From the NCBI RefSeq assembly GCF_022179725.1, contig NZ_BPRC01000019.1:1-64000 (forward strand): DNA of 64,000 nucleotides, written 5' to 3'. Positions within the stretch are counted from its first letter, which is position 1, and every line of letters starts with the position of its first letter. Below the pieces are notes generated by a model that was given only the letters and a program-made list of their open reading frames with translations, was not told where the DNA came from and did no database searches. Positions 4,817 to 10,916 of the stretch are shown piece after piece. Source of the stretch: Methylorubrum aminovorans (GTDB taxonomy: Bacteria > Pseudomonadota > Alphaproteobacteria > Rhizobiales > Beijerinckiaceae). The translations under genes were made by a program, and so were the position numbers.

Positions 4817-5752
4817 TCAGGGCCAGCGCACCGTCGGCGGCAGGGAGGAGAGGATCGAGGCGACGTTGCCGCCGGTCTTCAGGCCGAAGATGGTGCCGCG
4901 GTCGTAGAGCAGGTTGAACTCGACGTAGCGCCCGCGCCGCACCTGCTGCTCCTCCCGGTCGGCCTCGGTCCAGGCTTGCGCGAGGTTGCGCCGGACGATC
5001 TCCGGGTAGGCCTTGAGAAACGCCTGCCCGACCTCGCGGGTATAGGCCAGGTCGGCCTGCGGATCGCCGGTCCAGTGATAGTCGTAAAATATGCCGCCGA
5101 TGCCGCGGGGCTCGTTGCGGTGCTTGAGGTGGAAGTACTCGTCGCACCACGCCTTGTACCGCTCGTAGTTCGCGGCTGGCGCATGCCGCTCGCAGGCCTC
5201 GCGCAGGCAAGCATGGAAGAACTGCGTGTCGGGATCCTCTTGCGTCCGACGCCGGTCGAGCACGGGGGTGAGGTCGGCGCCGCCGCCGAACCACGCCTTG
5301 GTCGTCACGACGAAACGGGTGTTCATGTGCACCGTCGGAACGTTCGGGTTCCAGGGGTGGACGATCAGCGAGATGCCGGTGGCGAAGAAGCGCGGGTCTT
5401 CGGCCGCGCCCGGCATCTGCGCCCGGAATTCCGGGGCGAACTCGCCGTGTACGGTCGAGATATGGACGCCGGCCTTCTCGAAGACGCGACCCTTCAGCAT
5501 CGCCATCACGCCGCCGCCGCCCGGCACGCCGCTATGGTCCGTGCGCTGCCAGGGCGTCTTTTCGAACCGGCCCGCCGCCTTCGGCGCGTCCGGGTGGAAC
5601 GGACCGGTCGCCTCGTCCTCCAGCGTCTCCAGCGCGGCGACGATGCGGTCGCGCAGGGTGGCGAACCACGCGCCCGCCTCGCTCTTCAGCGCGGCGAGGT
5701 CGTCGGGGGATGGCAGAGGGGCAGAATTCGGGGCGGCTGTCGCATCGCTCAT
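4817..5752 (-). CDS. hemF: Aerobic coproporphyrinogen III oxidase
   Basis: 311 aa. The ATG at 5752 ([10 protein letters not shown]) is preferred over an in-frame ATG at 5779 because it matches the usual start of the family. HemF uses O2 to convert coproporphyrinogen III to protoporphyrinogen IX in haem and chlorophyll synthesis. Diagnostic stretches are [56 protein letters not shown] and [16 protein letters not shown] near the C-terminus. The length fits the family. It is the first gene of an apparent two-gene unit with the helicase gene. Confidence 0.96.
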
Positions 5753-5860
5753 GGCTCTAGGCTTTCCCATCCGGGCCACGATCCGTCAATTCGAGGCACG
5801 ATTGGGGAGGGCTCGATGTCCCCCCGCCCTCGGTCGATGCGGTGTCCCGTCCGGTCCGCT

Positions 5861-7579
5861 TCAAGCGCCGGAGAGGGTCTCCGCGGCTTTGGCGTGTCCG
5901 TCGGCGAGGGGCTTGGCCGCGCCGTTCCGAAGTCCGCCGACCAGCGCGTCGAGGCTGCCCTTGCCCTCGGAAAACCCCGCCTCGTTCAGAATCGCCCCGA
6001 GGATTGGGCTGTTGTACTGGTAGCGGAGCAGGTGGCCCGACAGGCTGTCGCCGAGGCTCGCCGAGACGCCGCCCGCGCCGTTGCCGCCGCCCAGCATCCC
6101 GCCCGCGTCGAAGATGCGGATCGAGTCGATCTTCTCCACCGCCCGCATGCTCTCGCGCAGGGCATCCGGGATGATGCCGAGGCGCTTCAGCCCGGTCTCG
6201 AAGGCACGGGCCTCGGGTGAGAGGGCGTTGCGGGCCTCGTTCATCACCCGCTCGCGCTCGGCCTCGGCCTGGCCGAGCTTGGCGATGGCCTCTGCCTTGG
6301 AGGAGGCGGCCGTCGCCTCGGCCTCGGCGAGCGTGGTGATGGCGTTGGCCCGGTCCTCGGCCGCGCGCCGCTCGGCCTCCGCCGTGACGGTGACGCCGGT
6401 CGCCTCCCGCTCCGCCTCGCGCTTGGCGGCGATGACCGCGATCTCGCGCTCGCGCTCGGCGATCTCCTTGGCCTTGGCGGTGGCGACGCGCTCCTCGGCG
6501 GCGACCGCCAGAGCCTCGGCGGCCTTGGCGGCGGCGCGCGCCTCGGATTCGCGCTGCGAGCGCTCGGCGATCTTTATGGCGTTGTCCTGCAGCACGAGCT
6601 GGCGCTCGCGCTCGGCCTCCGCGTTGCGCTGGGCGATGGCGAGATCCGCCTCGATCCGCGCGCCCTCCGAGTTCTTGCGTGCCTCGGCCTCGCGCAGGCG
6701 CACCGCCTGCTCGCGCTCGATCCGTGCGGTCTCCTCGCTCTGCTGGGCGCGCTGCTCGGCCTGGGCGGTCTCGGCGCGGGTCTCGGCGGTCTTGTTGGCG
6801 ATATCGCGCTCCTGGGCGAGTTCGGCCTCGCGGGTGGTGCGCTTGATCTCCAGTTGCTTGAGCGCGGTCTCGCGGTCCTTCTCGGCCACCGCCACCTCGG
6901 CATCGCGCTCGGTGGCGTTGCGCTCCTTGCGGCGCTGCTCGGTGATCTCCTTGAGCCGCGCCAAGCCTTCCGCGTCGAACGAGTTGTCGGGGTTGAAATG
7001 CTCGATCGAGGTCTGGTCGAGGCGGGTCAGCGAGGCGGATTCGAGTTCGAGGCCGTTGTGGCGCAGATCGCCCGAGACCGCCTCCTGCACGCCCTTGACG
7101 AAGGCGGCGCGCTTCTCCTGGAGGTCGGGCAGGGTCATGCCGGCGGCGACCGCGCGCAGGGCATCGACGAACTTCGCCTCGATCAGCTCGCGCAAGAGCA
7201 TGGCGTCATTGGTGCGGTCGCCCAGCGTCTGGGCGGCGAGCGCGATCGATTCCTCCTTGGGCTCGACCCGGACATAGAACTCGACGGTGATGTCGGCCCG
7301 CAGCCGGTCCTTGGTGATGAGCGACTCGTTGCCGGAGCGCTTCACTTCGAGCCGGAGCGTGTTGAGGTTGACCATGGCGATCGAGTGGAAGACGGGCAGC
7401 AGCACCGCGCCGCCATCGACCACGACCTTGCGCCCGCCCAGACCCGTGCGGACGAAGGCGGTATCCCGCGTCGTGCGCCGGTAGAGCCGGCTGAACACGA
7501 AGCCGATGCCGAGCAAAGCCACGACGATGATGCCGGCGATGACCAGCAGGTTGACGATGCCGGAACTGACCATGTCCAT
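5861..7579 (-). CDS. Flotillin / YqiK-like SPFH protein
   Basis: 572 aa from the ATG at 7579. One N-terminal membrane segment (residues 8-30, IVNLLVIAGIIVVALLGIGF) is followed by an SPFH/band-7 domain (about 35-190). A very long Glu/Ala/Arg-rich coiled coil (about 200-430) and a flotillin-type C-terminal region follow. Flotillins scaffold membrane microdomains and affect membrane fluidity. It is the last gene of a unit with the YqiJ-like and PspA-like genes, an association known from E. coli yqiJ/yqiK and other PspA-flotillin loci. Membrane-stress function is inferred from that. Confidence 0.9.
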   Translation of the reverse strand: MDMVSSGIVNLLVIAGIIVVALLGIGFVFSRLYRRTTRDTAFVRTGLGGRKVVVDGGAVLLPVFHSIAMVNLNTLRLEVKRSGNESLITKDRLRADITVEFYVRVEPKEESIALAAQTLGDRTNDAMLLRELIEAKFVDALRAVAAGMTLPDLQEKRAAFVKGVQEAVSGDLRHNGLELESASLTRLDQTSIEHFNPDNSFDAEGLARLKEITEQRRKERNATERDAEVAVAEKDRETALKQLEIKRTTREAELAQERDIANKTAETRAETAQAEQRAQQSEETARIEREQAVRLREAEARKNSEGARIEADLAIAQRNAEAERERQLVLQDNAIKIAERSQRESEARAAAKAAEALAVAAEERVATAKAKEIAEREREIAVIAAKREAEREATGVTVTAEAERRAAEDRANAITTLAEAEATAASSKAEAIAKLGQAEAERERVMNEARNALSPEARAFETGLKRLGIIPDALRESMRAVEKIDSIRIFDAGGMLGGGNGAGGVSASLGDSLSGHLLRYQYNSPILGAILNEAGFSEGKGSLDALVGGLRNGAAKPLADGHAKAAETLSGA

Positions 7580-7647
7580 CGCGTGCGATCCTTTCGGCCA
7601 AGGGCTCGGTTAGGGGCTCGGTTAAGGGTTCGGCTGGGGGAGGGCGT

Positions 7648-8304
7648 TCAGAGATCAGGGGTGGCGGGCACCGCGACGAAGACCGCCTCGATCCGGTCCA
7701 CGAGGAGGACGCGGGCGCCCGTGGCCATGGCCGGCGCGCCGGGGGCGGCGCGGGCGCGCAGGAAGTGGGTGTTGCCGTGGCGGTCCACCGCGCGGACCTG
7801 GCCCGGCAGGCCCTCGTCGAGGGGGCCGAGGGTAACCTCGGCGGTGGCACCGACCAGATCGTCGGCGGTGACGACGTAGGTCTCGTCCCGCGGGATCAAA
7901 CCGGCGATGGCACGAGTCGAGACGCGAAGGGCCGGGAGCGTCGCCGCGCCGGCCACCGGAACCGCCAGGAGGGCGGGCAGGGGCGCGACGAGGGCGGCGG
8001 CGAGCCCCTGCACGAGGAAGCCCGCCAGCGCGAAGACGGCCAGCGCCAGGATCAGCAGGATCAGGAAGGGCACGCGGCCAAGATTGATCCACGACATCAG
8101 CGCGGCCGGGGAGAACGCGCCGTCCGCATCCGCCGCGGTGGCGAGGTCGCCGCCGCCCCCCGCCTCGTGGCCGAGGGCATTGTCCACCAGCCCGGAGAGG
8201 GAATGGCCGACGAGGAGCGACAAAACCTCCACGACGACGAGGCCGGTCATCACCACTGCGGCCAGGGTGAAGGGGAACAGGGCGGGGCCGACCAGCGCGC
8301 TCAC
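7648..8304 (-). CDS. YqiJ-like membrane protein with OB-fold (NfeD-like) domain
   Basis: 218 aa. There are membrane segments near residues 8-32 and 75-118 (VPFLILLILALAVFALAGF). A soluble C-terminal domain of about 70 residues (VGATAEVTLGPLDEGLPGQV, DRHGNTHFLRAR, GARVLLVDRIEAVFVAV) fits the OB-fold of YqiJ/NfeD partners of flotillins. It overlaps the end of the PspA-like gene by 4 bp and lies 68 bp before the flotillin gene. NfeD-type proteins are thought to dock onto SPFH oligomers. Confidence 0.85.
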   Translation of the reverse strand: MSALVGPALFPFTLAAVVMTGLVVVEVLSLLVGHSLSGLVDNALGHEAGGGGDLATAADADGAFSPAALMSWINLGRVPFLILLILALAVFALAGFLVQGLAAALVAPLPALLAVPVAGAATLPALRVSTRAIAGLIPRDETYVVTADDLVGATAEVTLGPLDEGLPGQVRAVDRHGNTHFLRARAAPGAPAMATGARVLLVDRIEAVFVAVPATPDL

Positions 8305-9440
8305 GAAGGCCGGCCCTGCTTCAGCGCGGCGAGCCGCCGCTCGATGGCGTCGTCCCGGTGGAGCCGGTCGAGTTCCTCGACCGAGGGATCGGCAACCGCC
8401 GAGGCCGTGCCGGTCACCCGGTCGATCGCCCGCAGCGATTGTTCGAGCTGGCGGGTGCGCGTCACCTCCTCGCGGCCGTAGCCGTCGAGCGGGTCGGCCG
8501 CCTTCGTCGGAGGCTGTCGCAGCAAGGCGATCCGATGCTCGGCGTCGCGACGGGCGGCCTGGGCCGCCTGCATCGCCTTGGTGGCGGCTCCGTGCCGCTC
8601 GGCGACTTCGGCGAGGCTCGAATCGATCGCCTCGATCTGGCTCTCCAGATCGAGCTGCCGGCTGATGCCCGCCCGCGCCAGATCCTCGCGTCCGCCGGCG
8701 AGCGCCAGCGACAGCTTCTCGGGCAAGGCCGAGAGCTCCCCGTCGAGTTGGCTGCGGCGGGCGGTGAGACGGTGCTCCTCGGCCTTGATCTTGCCGAGAT
8801 CGAGCCGGGCCTCGTGGATCACGGCGTCGATCTCGCGCAGGGCCTGCTCGGCGACCGCGAGGGGATTGCGGTCCTCGACCGCGTCGATGGCGGCGTTCGA
8901 CAGGCCGCCGATGATCCGGCCGACGCGGGTCAGAATGTTCTCGGGCATGCGGGTCTCCTCTTTCGGGGCGGTGACGGAGACGCCCACCTGGATGGTGAGC
9001 GTGTCGCCCGCGACCGTGAGGCGGGCGCTGGAGAGGTCGCGCCAGGGGCCGTCATAGCCCTCGACGCGGTAGGGCATCGTGCGACGCCCGCAGAGTGTGG
9101 TGAGCGCGATCTCGGCGGCGCCCTTCACGCTGAACAGCTTGTCGTCGAGCGGCATCGACGTGACGCCCTCAGGGTCGAACCCGGCGGGGCGCTGGGCGAA
9201 ATCACGGATGCCGAGGGTTACGAGGCGGGCCGGCAGCCCGGTCTCGTCGCGCGCGCGCTGGTAGCCGTGCTCGATCAGGGCGACGACATTGGCCCGCAGG
9301 CCGTGCTCCCGGCGGATCTCTTCGAGGATGACGAGCATCCGCCGATAGGCCGCGAGCAGGGACCGGACCGCATCGAGATCGGCCGGCTCGGGCAGAAGCC
9401 GGTACGTCAGACGAGAGGGAAGGATTCCTGAGCGCGTCAC
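8301..9440 (-). CDS. PspA/IM30 protein continuous with a TnpB/OrfB-like N-terminal domain
   Basis: 379 aa if read from the GTG at 9440. Residues 165-379 are PspA/IM30: MPENILTRVGRIIGGLSNAA followed by long alpha-helical coiled coil (ALREIDAVIHEARLDLGKIK). PspA binds stressed inner membrane and remodels or protects it. Residues 1-164 look like the N-terminal (WED/helical) half of TnpB/OrfB proteins: LTYRLLPEPADLDAVRSLLA, TGLPARLVTLGIRDFAQR, PLDDKLFSVKGAAEIALTTL, LTVAGDTLTIQVGVSVTAP. No RuvC nuclease or zinc ribbon follows. The ATG at 8948 has its own Shine-Dalgarno (AAGAGGAG), so a 215-aa PspA alone may also be made. No stop separates the two parts. Confidence 0.75.
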   Translation of the reverse strand: MTRSGILPSRLTYRLLPEPADLDAVRSLLAAYRRMLVILEEIRREHGLRANVVALIEHGYQRARDETGLPARLVTLGIRDFAQRPAGFDPEGVTSMPLDDKLFSVKGAAEIALTTLCGRRTMPYRVEGYDGPWRDLSSARLTVAGDTLTIQVGVSVTAPKEETRMPENILTRVGRIIGGLSNAAIDAVEDRNPLAVAEQALREIDAVIHEARLDLGKIKAEEHRLTARRSQLDGELSALPEKLSLALAGGREDLARAGISRQLDLESQIEAIDSSLAEVAERHGAATKAMQAAQAARRDAEHRIALLRQPPTKAADPLDGYGREEVTRTRQLEQSLRAIDRVTGTASAVADPSVEELDRLHRDDAIERRLAALKQGRPS

Positions 9441-9451
9441 GGCTCGACGGT

Positions 9452-9472
9452 AAAACACCGAATTGGTGTTTT
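9452..9472. promoter_or_regulatory. AT-rich palindrome at the start of the PspA operon
   Basis: AAAACACC-GAATT-GGTGTTTT is a perfect 8-bp dyad with a 5-bp centre, 12-32 bp before the GTG at 9440. On the minus strand it sits between TTGAAA and TACCGT, 17 bp apart, which could be -35 and -10 elements, so it looks like an operator inside the promoter. The rest of the 386-bp intergenic region 9441-9826 shows no convincing gene. The binding protein is unknown; the divergent AraC-type gene is one candidate. Confidence 0.5.
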
Positions 9473-9826
9473 CAACGACAATGCACGCATCGGATGTGAC
9501 GATCCTCGGCGTTTGCGCAGGCGAGGTGTGAGGTCGCACACGCCTCCTGTCATCGGCTTGCGCATCTCGGCCGGCAAATGAACCCTAGGATTCGCGCGAT
9601 CGTTGGATGATGGTCTCCCGGCCGTCGCCATCACGTCAAGAATGGTCGATGAAGGATCGCGGTGAAACCAGTGCTTCTCTGCCAAAATCTGTCATCGATG
9701 TCTTGGGTGTCCACGGCGAACTTGTTATTGACTCGCCATGCCCGCTGGGTGGTCTTCGGGCGGCATCTCATCCTGCGTGTCCATTTATGGCACTGAAGCC
9801 ATCATCCGTATCCGCGATCTGTTCCG

Positions 9827-10840
9827 ATGCCCGATAGCAAAAGCCGACAGCCCGGGGCCCGAGACGTTCAATCGGTCTGGCGGCCACAACGGTTCTTCGC
9901 GCATCAACTGCAATCCGTGCGCGAGTTCGAGCGCCTGAACGACGACGGCGGGCTCGCCGTGAACTTCTATCCCGTCTCCCGCGCAACCCCTCAGGTCCGG
10001 GTGGAGGGCGGACAGAGCCCGACCATGAGCCTTTGGCTCACCCAGTCCGCCACGGGCTTCCTGACCGTTCCCACGCTGGAAGCCGATCTGTTCACCATCC
10101 GCTTCGTCACCGGCGGCCAGATGATCCGCCGAAACGTGCGCGGGGAGCAGGTGGTCACTCAAGGCTACGCAACGTTCAGCGCACTGGAGGATATGCGAAG
10201 CGGCGAGGCCTCGTCGGGTTTCACGGCCATCAGCAGCACCATCGCGCGCGCATCGCTTCTGTCGAGCTACCACGCTCTGGAGGGAAAAGTGGATCGCCCG
10301 CTTCCCGCGCTGGAGCCGCTCACCTCAATCGACGGTTTGGGGATGCGTGCGCTCTTGCTGTCGCTGGAGCAGATGCAGATCCGGCTGCGCGATGTGCGTA
10401 CGGTCGACGATCTGTTCTTTCCGCTGCTGGAAGAGATCGTTTCCTACCAAATGCTGAGTGTGTGGCCGCGGGCGCCGGTTGCCGAACTGCCTTCGCCCGG
10501 CAGTCTCTCGGCGTCTCACGTTCACCGCGCGGTCGAATACATCGGGGCTCATCTGGCGACGCCGTTCCGGTTGGCAGATGTCGCGGCCGAGGTGGGGGTG
10601 AGTGTCCGGATGTTGCAGATGTCGTTCAAGCGGGAGTTGGGCGTGACACCGGTCGAATTCATCATCGAGCGTCGTCTGCAGCAGGTTCACCGCGATCTCT
10701 GCAGCGAGGCGCAGCGGGATGTTTCGATCGCGGAGCTGAGCCGCCGATGGGGCTTCGCGCATATGAGCGACTTCGCGCAACGTTATCGGCGCCGCTTCGG
10801 CTGCACGCCGCGGGAAACGCGACGGGATATGCTGCGCTGA
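9827..10840 (+). CDS. AraC-family transcriptional regulator
   Basis: 337 aa from the ATG at 9827. The first 200 residues form an AraC-binding-like sensor domain (VREFERLNDDGGLAVNFYPV, LWLTQSATGFLTVPT). The last 100 form a double helix-turn-helix: AVEYIGAHLATPFRLADVAA, VGVSVRMLQMSFKRELGVTP, AELSRRWGFAHMSDFAQRYR and RRFGCTPRETRR. It is divergent from the PspA-YqiJ-flotillin operon, which it may control; that is inference from position only. The effector is unknown. Confidence 0.88.
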   Translation: MPDSKSRQPGARDVQSVWRPQRFFAHQLQSVREFERLNDDGGLAVNFYPVSRATPQVRVEGGQSPTMSLWLTQSATGFLTVPTLEADLFTIRFVTGGQMIRRNVRGEQVVTQGYATFSALEDMRSGEASSGFTAISSTIARASLLSSYHALEGKVDRPLPALEPLTSIDGLGMRALLLSLEQMQIRLRDVRTVDDLFFPLLEEIVSYQMLSVWPRAPVAELPSPGSLSASHVHRAVEYIGAHLATPFRLADVAAEVGVSVRMLQMSFKRELGVTPVEFIIERRLQQVHRDLCSEAQRDVSIAELSRRWGFAHMSDFAQRYRRRFGCTPRETRRDMLR

Positions 10841-10916
10841 GTGGACTGCCGCGATAGCGGAAATGCGAAACAGTATTATTTTCGCGAATACAGCAGTTTT
10901 ACCCGCCATTAAACGA

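Follow-up and report, generated by a model that had tools for sequence, protein, structure and literature searches.

The window, a stretch of 64,000 nucleotides (nt) comprising positions 1 to 64,000 of contig NZ_BPRC01000019.1 of Methylorubrum aminovorans (GCF_022179725.1), carries on its minus strand an operon in the PspA-YqiJ-flotillin order, with PspA first, then YqiJ and then a band-7/flotillin gene. Its first gene is a single uninterrupted frame in which a complete PspA is joined to a front part that is, with near certainty, homologous to TnpB of IS200/IS605, the transposon enzyme from which CRISPR-Cas12 arose, and corresponds to the nuclease-free WED and REC half of that protein. An initial annotation of the same letters had proposed this frame, without stating its strand, together with LPARLVTLGIRDFAQ, LFSVKGAAEIALTTL-GRR-x-MPY and LTIQVGVSV segments in the front part, and both the frame and the segments are present. 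The features of the locus are as follows.

8301..9440, minus strand: fusion gene, TnpB-type WED/REC domain plus PspA, 379 amino acids (aa), with a GTG start at 9440-9438 and a stop at 8303-8301.
8979..9416, minus strand: TnpB-derived WED-REC domain, residues 9-154, one strand, three helices and six strands, by AlphaFold2 (AF2) model, folds, profiles and alignment.
8301..8948, minus strand: PspA/IM30 domain, which has an internal ATG start at 8948; Pfam PF04012 (PspA_IM30), 43.9 bits against a cut-off of 33.9.
8955..8960, minus strand: internal Shine-Dalgarno (SD) sequence GAGGAG ahead of the PspA ATG at 8948, by sequence and comparison of relatives.
9452..9472, no strand: palindromic operator candidate AAAACACC-N5-GGTGTTTT with arms of 8 base pairs (bp), by conservation and covariation.
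9470..9475, minus strand: putative -35-like box TTGAAA, overlapping the left arm of the palindrome; missed by the consensus scan.
9447..9452, minus strand: putative, weak -10-like box TACCGT, 17 bp from TTGAAA, with the start codon 6 nt on; missed by the consensus scan.
7648..8304, minus strand: YqiJ/OB-fold membrane protein whose start overlaps the fusion stop by 4 bp; PF21001, 79.5 bits, and PF07290, 42 bits.
5861..7579, minus strand: flotillin/band-7 protein, the last gene of the operon; PF15975, 94.5 bits, and PF01145, 58.3 bits.

The fusion frame is open on the minus strand from about 9584 down to the stop at 8301-8303. The GTG at 9440, from which the protein would begin VTRSGILPSRL, is the likely true start because an in-frame stop lies a few codons upstream of it in 9 of the 18 congeneric frames (L003, L005-L011, L018) and because the conservation upstream of it is that of a DNA palindrome, not of a protein. 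The product comprises a 164-residue front part, of which about 155 residues are TnpB-like, followed by PspA, which scores 38.9 bits against the phage-shock equivalog TIGR02977, below the cut-off of 242.95. A divergent AraC-type gene (9827-10840, plus strand) adjoins the operon.

An AlphaFold2 model of the front domain, built from 38 sequences, was obtained with a predicted local distance difference test score (pLDDT) of 89.6 and a predicted template-modelling score (pTM) of 0.84. Comparison of this model with the PDB by Foldseek placed Cas12, TnpB, Fanzor or TranC proteins at all of ranks 1-10, at modest E-values (best 2.6e-3, none below 0.001) and with query template-modelling scores of 0.22-0.55 in these top ten rows. 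In VIA-align, rows 1-49 were all TnpB, Fanzor, TranC or Cas12 (Z 12.0-6.7), including ISDra2 TnpB 8ex9 with 141 residues at 3.5 Å (Z 11.6), and row 50 was unrelated (Z 4.0), while a viral structure library gave transposase or TnpB-like names in 10 of its first 22 rows, most of the others bearing no telling name. Alignment of the domain profile with ten TnpBs of one subfamily by hhalign reached 98.0% (E 2e-13, 143 columns), with 91.4% for the helical half alone and 95.8% for the beta half alone; the best of 30 column-shuffled controls reached 1.0% and the reversed control 0.2%. These ten TnpBs were confirmed by their records and by PDB profile search (Cas12f first, ISDra2 TnpB at E 1e-16). Because the comparison subfamily had been picked via a typed motif, an independent check by hidden Markov model (HMM) matters here: the domain HMM, searched against 388 genomes of the phylum, gave ten matches, nine of them fusions and the tenth a TnpB (E 1.5e-7) that Pfam recognizes by OrfB_IS605 (47.2 bits) and Cas12f1-like_TNB (81.1 bits) and that adjoins a Y1 TnpA (137.3 bits).

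In the alignment the domain stops at the last WED strand, directly ahead of the RuvC-I motif GxDxG of TnpB, and PspA then begins; domain and subfamily share Y, L, D, K/R, K, T and GR residues. At E up to 10, the 412-aa frame showed no zinc-finger TNB domain of TnpB. The AlphaFold and profile comparisons that the initial annotation had suggested as a check both returned TnpB and, together with the unprompted HMM match to a Pfam-confirmed TnpB beside TnpA, uphold its view of residues 1-155 as the N-terminal half of a TnpB from which RuvC is missing, PspA starting in its stead. Sequence-level searches were less informative. The N-terminal part, scanned as a single sequence, had no match in Pfam or NCBIfam, and PDB sequence searches found no relative. 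Scans of 42 members, from the distinct fused loci described below, yielded weak matches only, to HTH_OrfB_IS605 in 4 of the 42 (best E 0.18) and to the TIGR01765 transposase N-terminal domain in one (E 0.047), amid unrelated weak matches of which some were stronger or commoner (Transketolase_C in 2, E 0.0096; TIGR01486 in 9, E 0.009). Methylobacterium's own TnpBs (11 of 30 loci) belong to another clade and do not match the domain (hhalign probability 4.0%); OrfB_IS605 has no match in the window's genome, nor TIGR01765 in 249 genomes of the phylum. A model of the full-length fusion (pLDDT 79.2, pTM 0.43) contains two confident parts whose mutual placement is not fixed.

The search for the same architecture in relatives, likewise suggested at the outset, found it recurrent and conserved. 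The front part matched in 19 of 111 genomes of the genus (Methylobacterium and Methylorubrum species), as 18 fused frames and one broken fragment in genome G043, and in 28 of 397 genomes of the order, where 24 matches run across the domain and the PspA start and 4 across the PspA start only. Plasmids carry the fusion too (11 of 72,556 records, from Agrobacterium, Shinella, Rhizobium and Bosea), as does another alphaproteobacterial genome, G505; among 50,697 phage records, none matched the domain at E 0.01. Going by the family labels in the order and phylum searches, the fused architecture occurs in at least eight families, and this recurrence of the joining of domain and PspA is far beyond chance. 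All 18 YqiJ-positive genomes of the genus carry the fused frame, and the TnpB-type domain is absent or fragmentary (G043) only where YqiJ is likewise absent; an upstream part that was missing or interrupted by stops in close relatives, the finding that the initial annotation had held would speak against it, was not encountered. No in-frame stop lies inside any of the 24 order-wide fused matches, and the stops seen in the genus search precede the start, the G043 fragment being the one exception. The 24 fusion genomes of the order all fall within its 36 YqiJ-positive genomes; among the other 12, six have an unfused PspA (G134, G203, G304, G378, G432, G456), G479 has a decayed domain, G194, G243 and G436 show no PspA within the stretch covered, and G310 and G482 were left out of inspection. 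In each of five plasmid records inspected, YqiJ and flotillin adjoin the fusion; the neighbours of the operon vary among these records.

The domain is under purifying selection, as is PspA: in 13 comparisons with the window's gene the ratio of non-synonymous to synonymous substitution rates was 0.05-0.43 for the domain and 0.07-0.68 for PspA. A tree of 20 fused and 6 unfused PspA rows separated the two groups with 100/100 support, with some branches reported as long by the tool; since the fused PspAs lie on one side of this branch, a single origin explains the pattern most simply. The 20 fused rows of the tree and the 22 rows of the arm-conservation analysis below were hand-chosen. The 42 distinct fused loci on which the following counts are based omit repeats with the same N-domain (L022-L027, L032-L035) and the fragments L019-L021 and L056-L057, which fell outside the pattern of the script and were counted as fusions, by match extent, only in the order-wide count; L161 was added later. 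Several irregular copies were noted on the way. In G039 (L009) a frameshift near the PspA C-terminus, either a mutation or a sequencing error, carries the frame into YqiJ (630 aa). Genome G004 contains, about 5 kilobases from the operon, a second, decayed domain copy (L105:11262-11603; 63% identity, central segment gone) that is in frame with an unrelated stretch resembling a helix-turn-helix. The G043 remnant (L104:4908-5249) is a broken fusion in a genome without YqiJ, pointing to operon loss, and lies beside the same AraC-type gene as the operon in the window; in G479 (L138:1110-1447) a frame-broken remnant of the TnpB-type domain stands ahead of YqiJ, most of PspA having been lost.

About 32 bp upstream of the fusion start lies a palindrome, AAARCACY-N5-RGTGYTTT. 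In 39 of the 42 fused loci it ranks first among the palindromes and sits at -31 to -36, and in 36 of the 42 at least 6 of its 8 arm pairs are present there. The motif AARCACYNNNNNRGTGYTT occurs with at most two mismatches within 60 bp upstream of the start in 41 of the 42 (exactly in 21), the miss being L044, and in none of 13 unfused-operon loci (from 9 genomes, four represented twice). Among the 22 representatives the information per column is 1.65 and 1.55 bits in the arms, 0.72 in the spacer and 0.16 and 0.45 in the flanks, and arm pair 4 covaries, being G-C in 11, A-T in 9 and mispaired in 2. The exact motif was found in 13 of the 111 genus genomes at one site each, 12 of these at the fusion and one (G081) elsewhere, and 6 of the 18 fused genus genomes have an imperfect copy of the palindrome. 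Stray palindromes in G259 and G081 were rejected as real sites and taken as chance, as no fusion lies nearby and the reversed pattern gives 3 sites in the 111 genomes. In L031 the palindrome fills the 17-bp gap that separates TTGAAA from TATATT, with the start codon 6 nt further on. Loci L050 and L052-L055 have an extra direct GTGCTTT half-site after the palindrome, just before the start codon (GGTGCTTTAGTGCTTT).

The two starts of the fusion gene differ in their ribosome-binding signals. Of the 42 loci, one has an SD match of 5 nt or more ahead of the first start and 35 have one ahead of the PspA ATG (background 8.0%), which agrees with the earlier suggestion, drawn from the SD before the ATG at 8948, that free PspA could be produced besides the fusion. 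Because such matches are rare at the first start and common at the PspA start, the fusion mRNA is probably leaderless from its first codon, and both the fusion and free PspA are likely made.

Unfused operons offer a comparison. In six such loci (L058, L059, L060, L061, L126, L129) a separate PspA gene is directly preceded by a gene of 158-171 residues whose product opens SLSVRL..ED..TPSDKIR, like a ribbon-helix-helix (RHH) protein, "RHH-like" being our reading of the sequence. Four of these small genes were scanned without receiving a Pfam name, and a PDB search of one gave no match; they likely represent an unnamed regulator family. The start regions of the RHH-like genes carry other inverted repeats, read by eye, for example CAAATGCATACATTTG beside a TTGACA box in L058. 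Since the RHH-like gene stands directly before PspA in the unfused operons, the TnpB-derived domain occupies the place of a likely regulator.

On balance we favor the proposal that the WED and REC module, joined to PspA, is a dedicated operator-binding autoregulator of its own PspA-YqiJ-flotillin operon. The fusion, as a dimer or higher oligomer, would bind the palindrome over the -35 box and spacer and hold transcription down; upon envelope damage PspA would be recruited to the membrane or polymerise there, the attached domain would quit the operator and the operon would be turned on. Read from the first codon of a leaderless mRNA, the fusion would act as sensor-repressor, and free PspA made from the internal ribosome site would be the effector. 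We infer binding of DNA at the palindrome, repression, relief by membrane binding, the leaderless mRNA and operation without a guide RNA. More tentative, if quite conceivable, is the specific proposal that the half of TnpB that reads the target-adjacent or protospacer-adjacent motif (TAM or PAM) has been freed of nuclease and guide RNA to become a protein-only dimeric repressor carried on PspA, with an operator half-site that stems from a TAM-like motif. In the available part of the account of ISDra2 TnpB (PMC10097598), the TAM duplex is read in the WED-REC cleft by Y52, S56, K76, F77, Q80, T123 and N124, and the omega-RNA scaffold rests on WED and RuvC; by analogy, the fusion retains the duplex-reading half of TnpB. 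In an alignment of 7 Methylobacterium TnpBs and 12 fusions, three MAFFT modes agreed in placing F77, Q80 and Y52 of ISDra2 at R72, T75 and V53 of the fusion, all three of which are invariant in the 42 sequences. In the remote fusion L161, R72 and T75 are replaced by Q and V and the upstream repeat also differs (AAAGGA..TCCTTT), a co-change that is only suggestive of a link between these residues and the operator.

Several observations weigh against these proposals, the chief of them being that the domain is not clearly basic: its isoelectric point (pI) ranges from 5.0 to 9.8 among the 42 members, with acidic values in several lineages, compared with 7.8-10.3 for the N-terminal halves of the ten TnpBs. 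Only 3 of the 7 TAM positions are invariant, against 31 of 164 residues overall (about 0.13 by chance), and the mapping holds only as far as the ISDra2 letters used for it are right. Seven of the 31 invariant positions have other residues in L161, which reduces its co-change to one weak case. The exact motif is held by only 12 of the 18 fusion genomes within the genus and by 7 of the 22 outside it (at the fusion in 6), and a consensus scan of 8800-9700 found no sigma-70 promoter and no terminator. As to the two products, 7 of the 42 loci lack a 5-nt internal SD by the script, and a 4-nt SD-like match precedes the first start in 30 of the 42, mostly the palindrome's own GGTG (background 31%).

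The charge of the domain, near neutral or acidic in several lineages, also favors an alternative in which an unlinked regulator uses the palindrome as its operator and the domain serves in oligomerisation, in holding YqiJ or flotillin, or in membrane binding; that PspA proteins are oligomeric was counted on the same side. We judge this unlikely, as none of the 111 genus genomes has a second exact site and the window's genome has none even within one mismatch at the stringency used, so an unlinked regulator would act on this operon alone and leave its own gene uncontrolled; the absence of the motif from the 13 unfused-operon loci, and the position of the domain where unfused operons have the RHH-like gene, stand against it as well. 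Binding of the domain to RNA, either at a palindrome hairpin in its own mRNA or at another structured RNA, is less probable still. A palindrome with covarying arms could equally be an RNA hairpin, and the WED domain of TnpB helps to bind omega-RNA in the portion of the source available (PMC10097598); in loci with clear boxes, however, the palindrome lies between the -35-like and -10-like boxes and would therefore not be transcribed, the near-absence of a 5-nt SD from the first start fits a leaderless start, and Rfam has no family in 5000-10900. The promoter palindrome and the RHH-like gene at the same place in unfused operons sharpen towards DNA the "RNA- or DNA-binding autoregulator" of the initial annotation.

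We give far less credence to a TldR-like RNA-guided regulator in which the WED/REC half carries a guide produced at another place. WED and REC of TnpB touch the guide-target heteroduplex and the TAM, and TldRs show that a TnpB can become a repressor, as far as the accessible text of the two sources goes (PMC10097598 and PMC13418256, respectively). The fusion, however, lacks RuvC, a domain that also takes part in holding the omega-RNA scaffold, and the conserved, non-programmable palindrome resembles a protein-read operator. Nor was a conserved non-coding block seen around the operon, which leaves room for an RNA, such as the omega-RNA encoded at the 3' end of a TnpB gene, that overlaps coding DNA: upstream DNA similarity among seven congeneric loci ends at 9423-9500, just beyond the palindrome, and downstream similarity ends at flotillin or runs into the next coding frame. 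Least credible of all is a functionless transposon scar, which had been offered as an option at the outset, or an annotation accident. The patchiness of the operon in the genus (18 of 111) and the decayed copies in G043, G004 (the second copy) and G479 could be cited for it; the same architecture in at least eight families, purifying selection, the conserved promoter palindrome and the single origin oppose it, and the readings as a transposon scar or a frameshift artefact were ruled out by this conservation.

The autoregulatory fusion proposed here would resemble known systems in part. With TnpB of the IS200/IS605 subfamily of 'YDxRxLSFKGxxxVSIxTxxGRxxVP'-type WED (for example L092-L101 and L162) it has the WED-REC topology in common; unlike that subfamily it has no RuvC with D-E-D catalytic residues, no zinc finger (TNB) and no transposon, is joined to PspA and has a shorter link between its helical and beta parts. 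TldRs are TnpB-derived RNA-guided repressors in which RuvC is inactivated by mutation and the guide RNA is kept, as given in the available part of their description (PMC13418256). The fusion is like them in its TnpB derivation, its loss of nuclease activity and its linkage to genes outside transposons, and, so far as proposed, in transcription control; it differs in that RuvC is absent rather than mutated, in that the palindrome is conserved and in that no guide is evident around the operon. Some TldRs are said to be shortened. In Escherichia coli, PspA inhibits a separate activator, PspF. Common to that control and to our proposal is that PspA would couple the state of the membrane to transcription of its own operon, whereas here PspA itself contains the candidate DNA-reading domain.

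A 2024 survey of phage-shock-protein (PSP) systems (PMC11237479) describes, in its available text, operons with the same partners as here, band-7/flotillin and YqiJ, and lists tandem PspA as well as fusions 'including' NlpC/P60 and PspAA; that text names no TnpB-type domain and describes no regulator for PspA-YqiJ-flotillin operons, and the word 'transposase' is absent from the survey's main text. Full-text literature searches, with most subscription papers and bioRxiv outside their scope, returned no description of a TnpB-PspA fusion. To our knowledge, every line of domesticated TnpB described to date (Cas12, Fanzor, TldR) keeps the RuvC fold, intact or mutated. New here, as read from the sequences, are the conserved palindrome at the start of the fusion, the pattern of start signals that makes two products likely, and the RHH-like gene that comes first in unfused operons.

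A stable family that keeps only WED and REC would show that this half of TnpB can live alone, and would raise the question of whether a TAM-reading domain could bind DNA without a guide; should operator binding by the protein alone be proved, the fusion would be a new kind of domesticated TnpB. It would also supply a candidate regulator for operons of the PspA-YqiJ-flotillin type in Methylobacterium, Bosea, Agrobacterium, Rhizobium and their relatives. In Methylobacterium and several related families, a piece of TnpB has probably become the switch of this stress operon.

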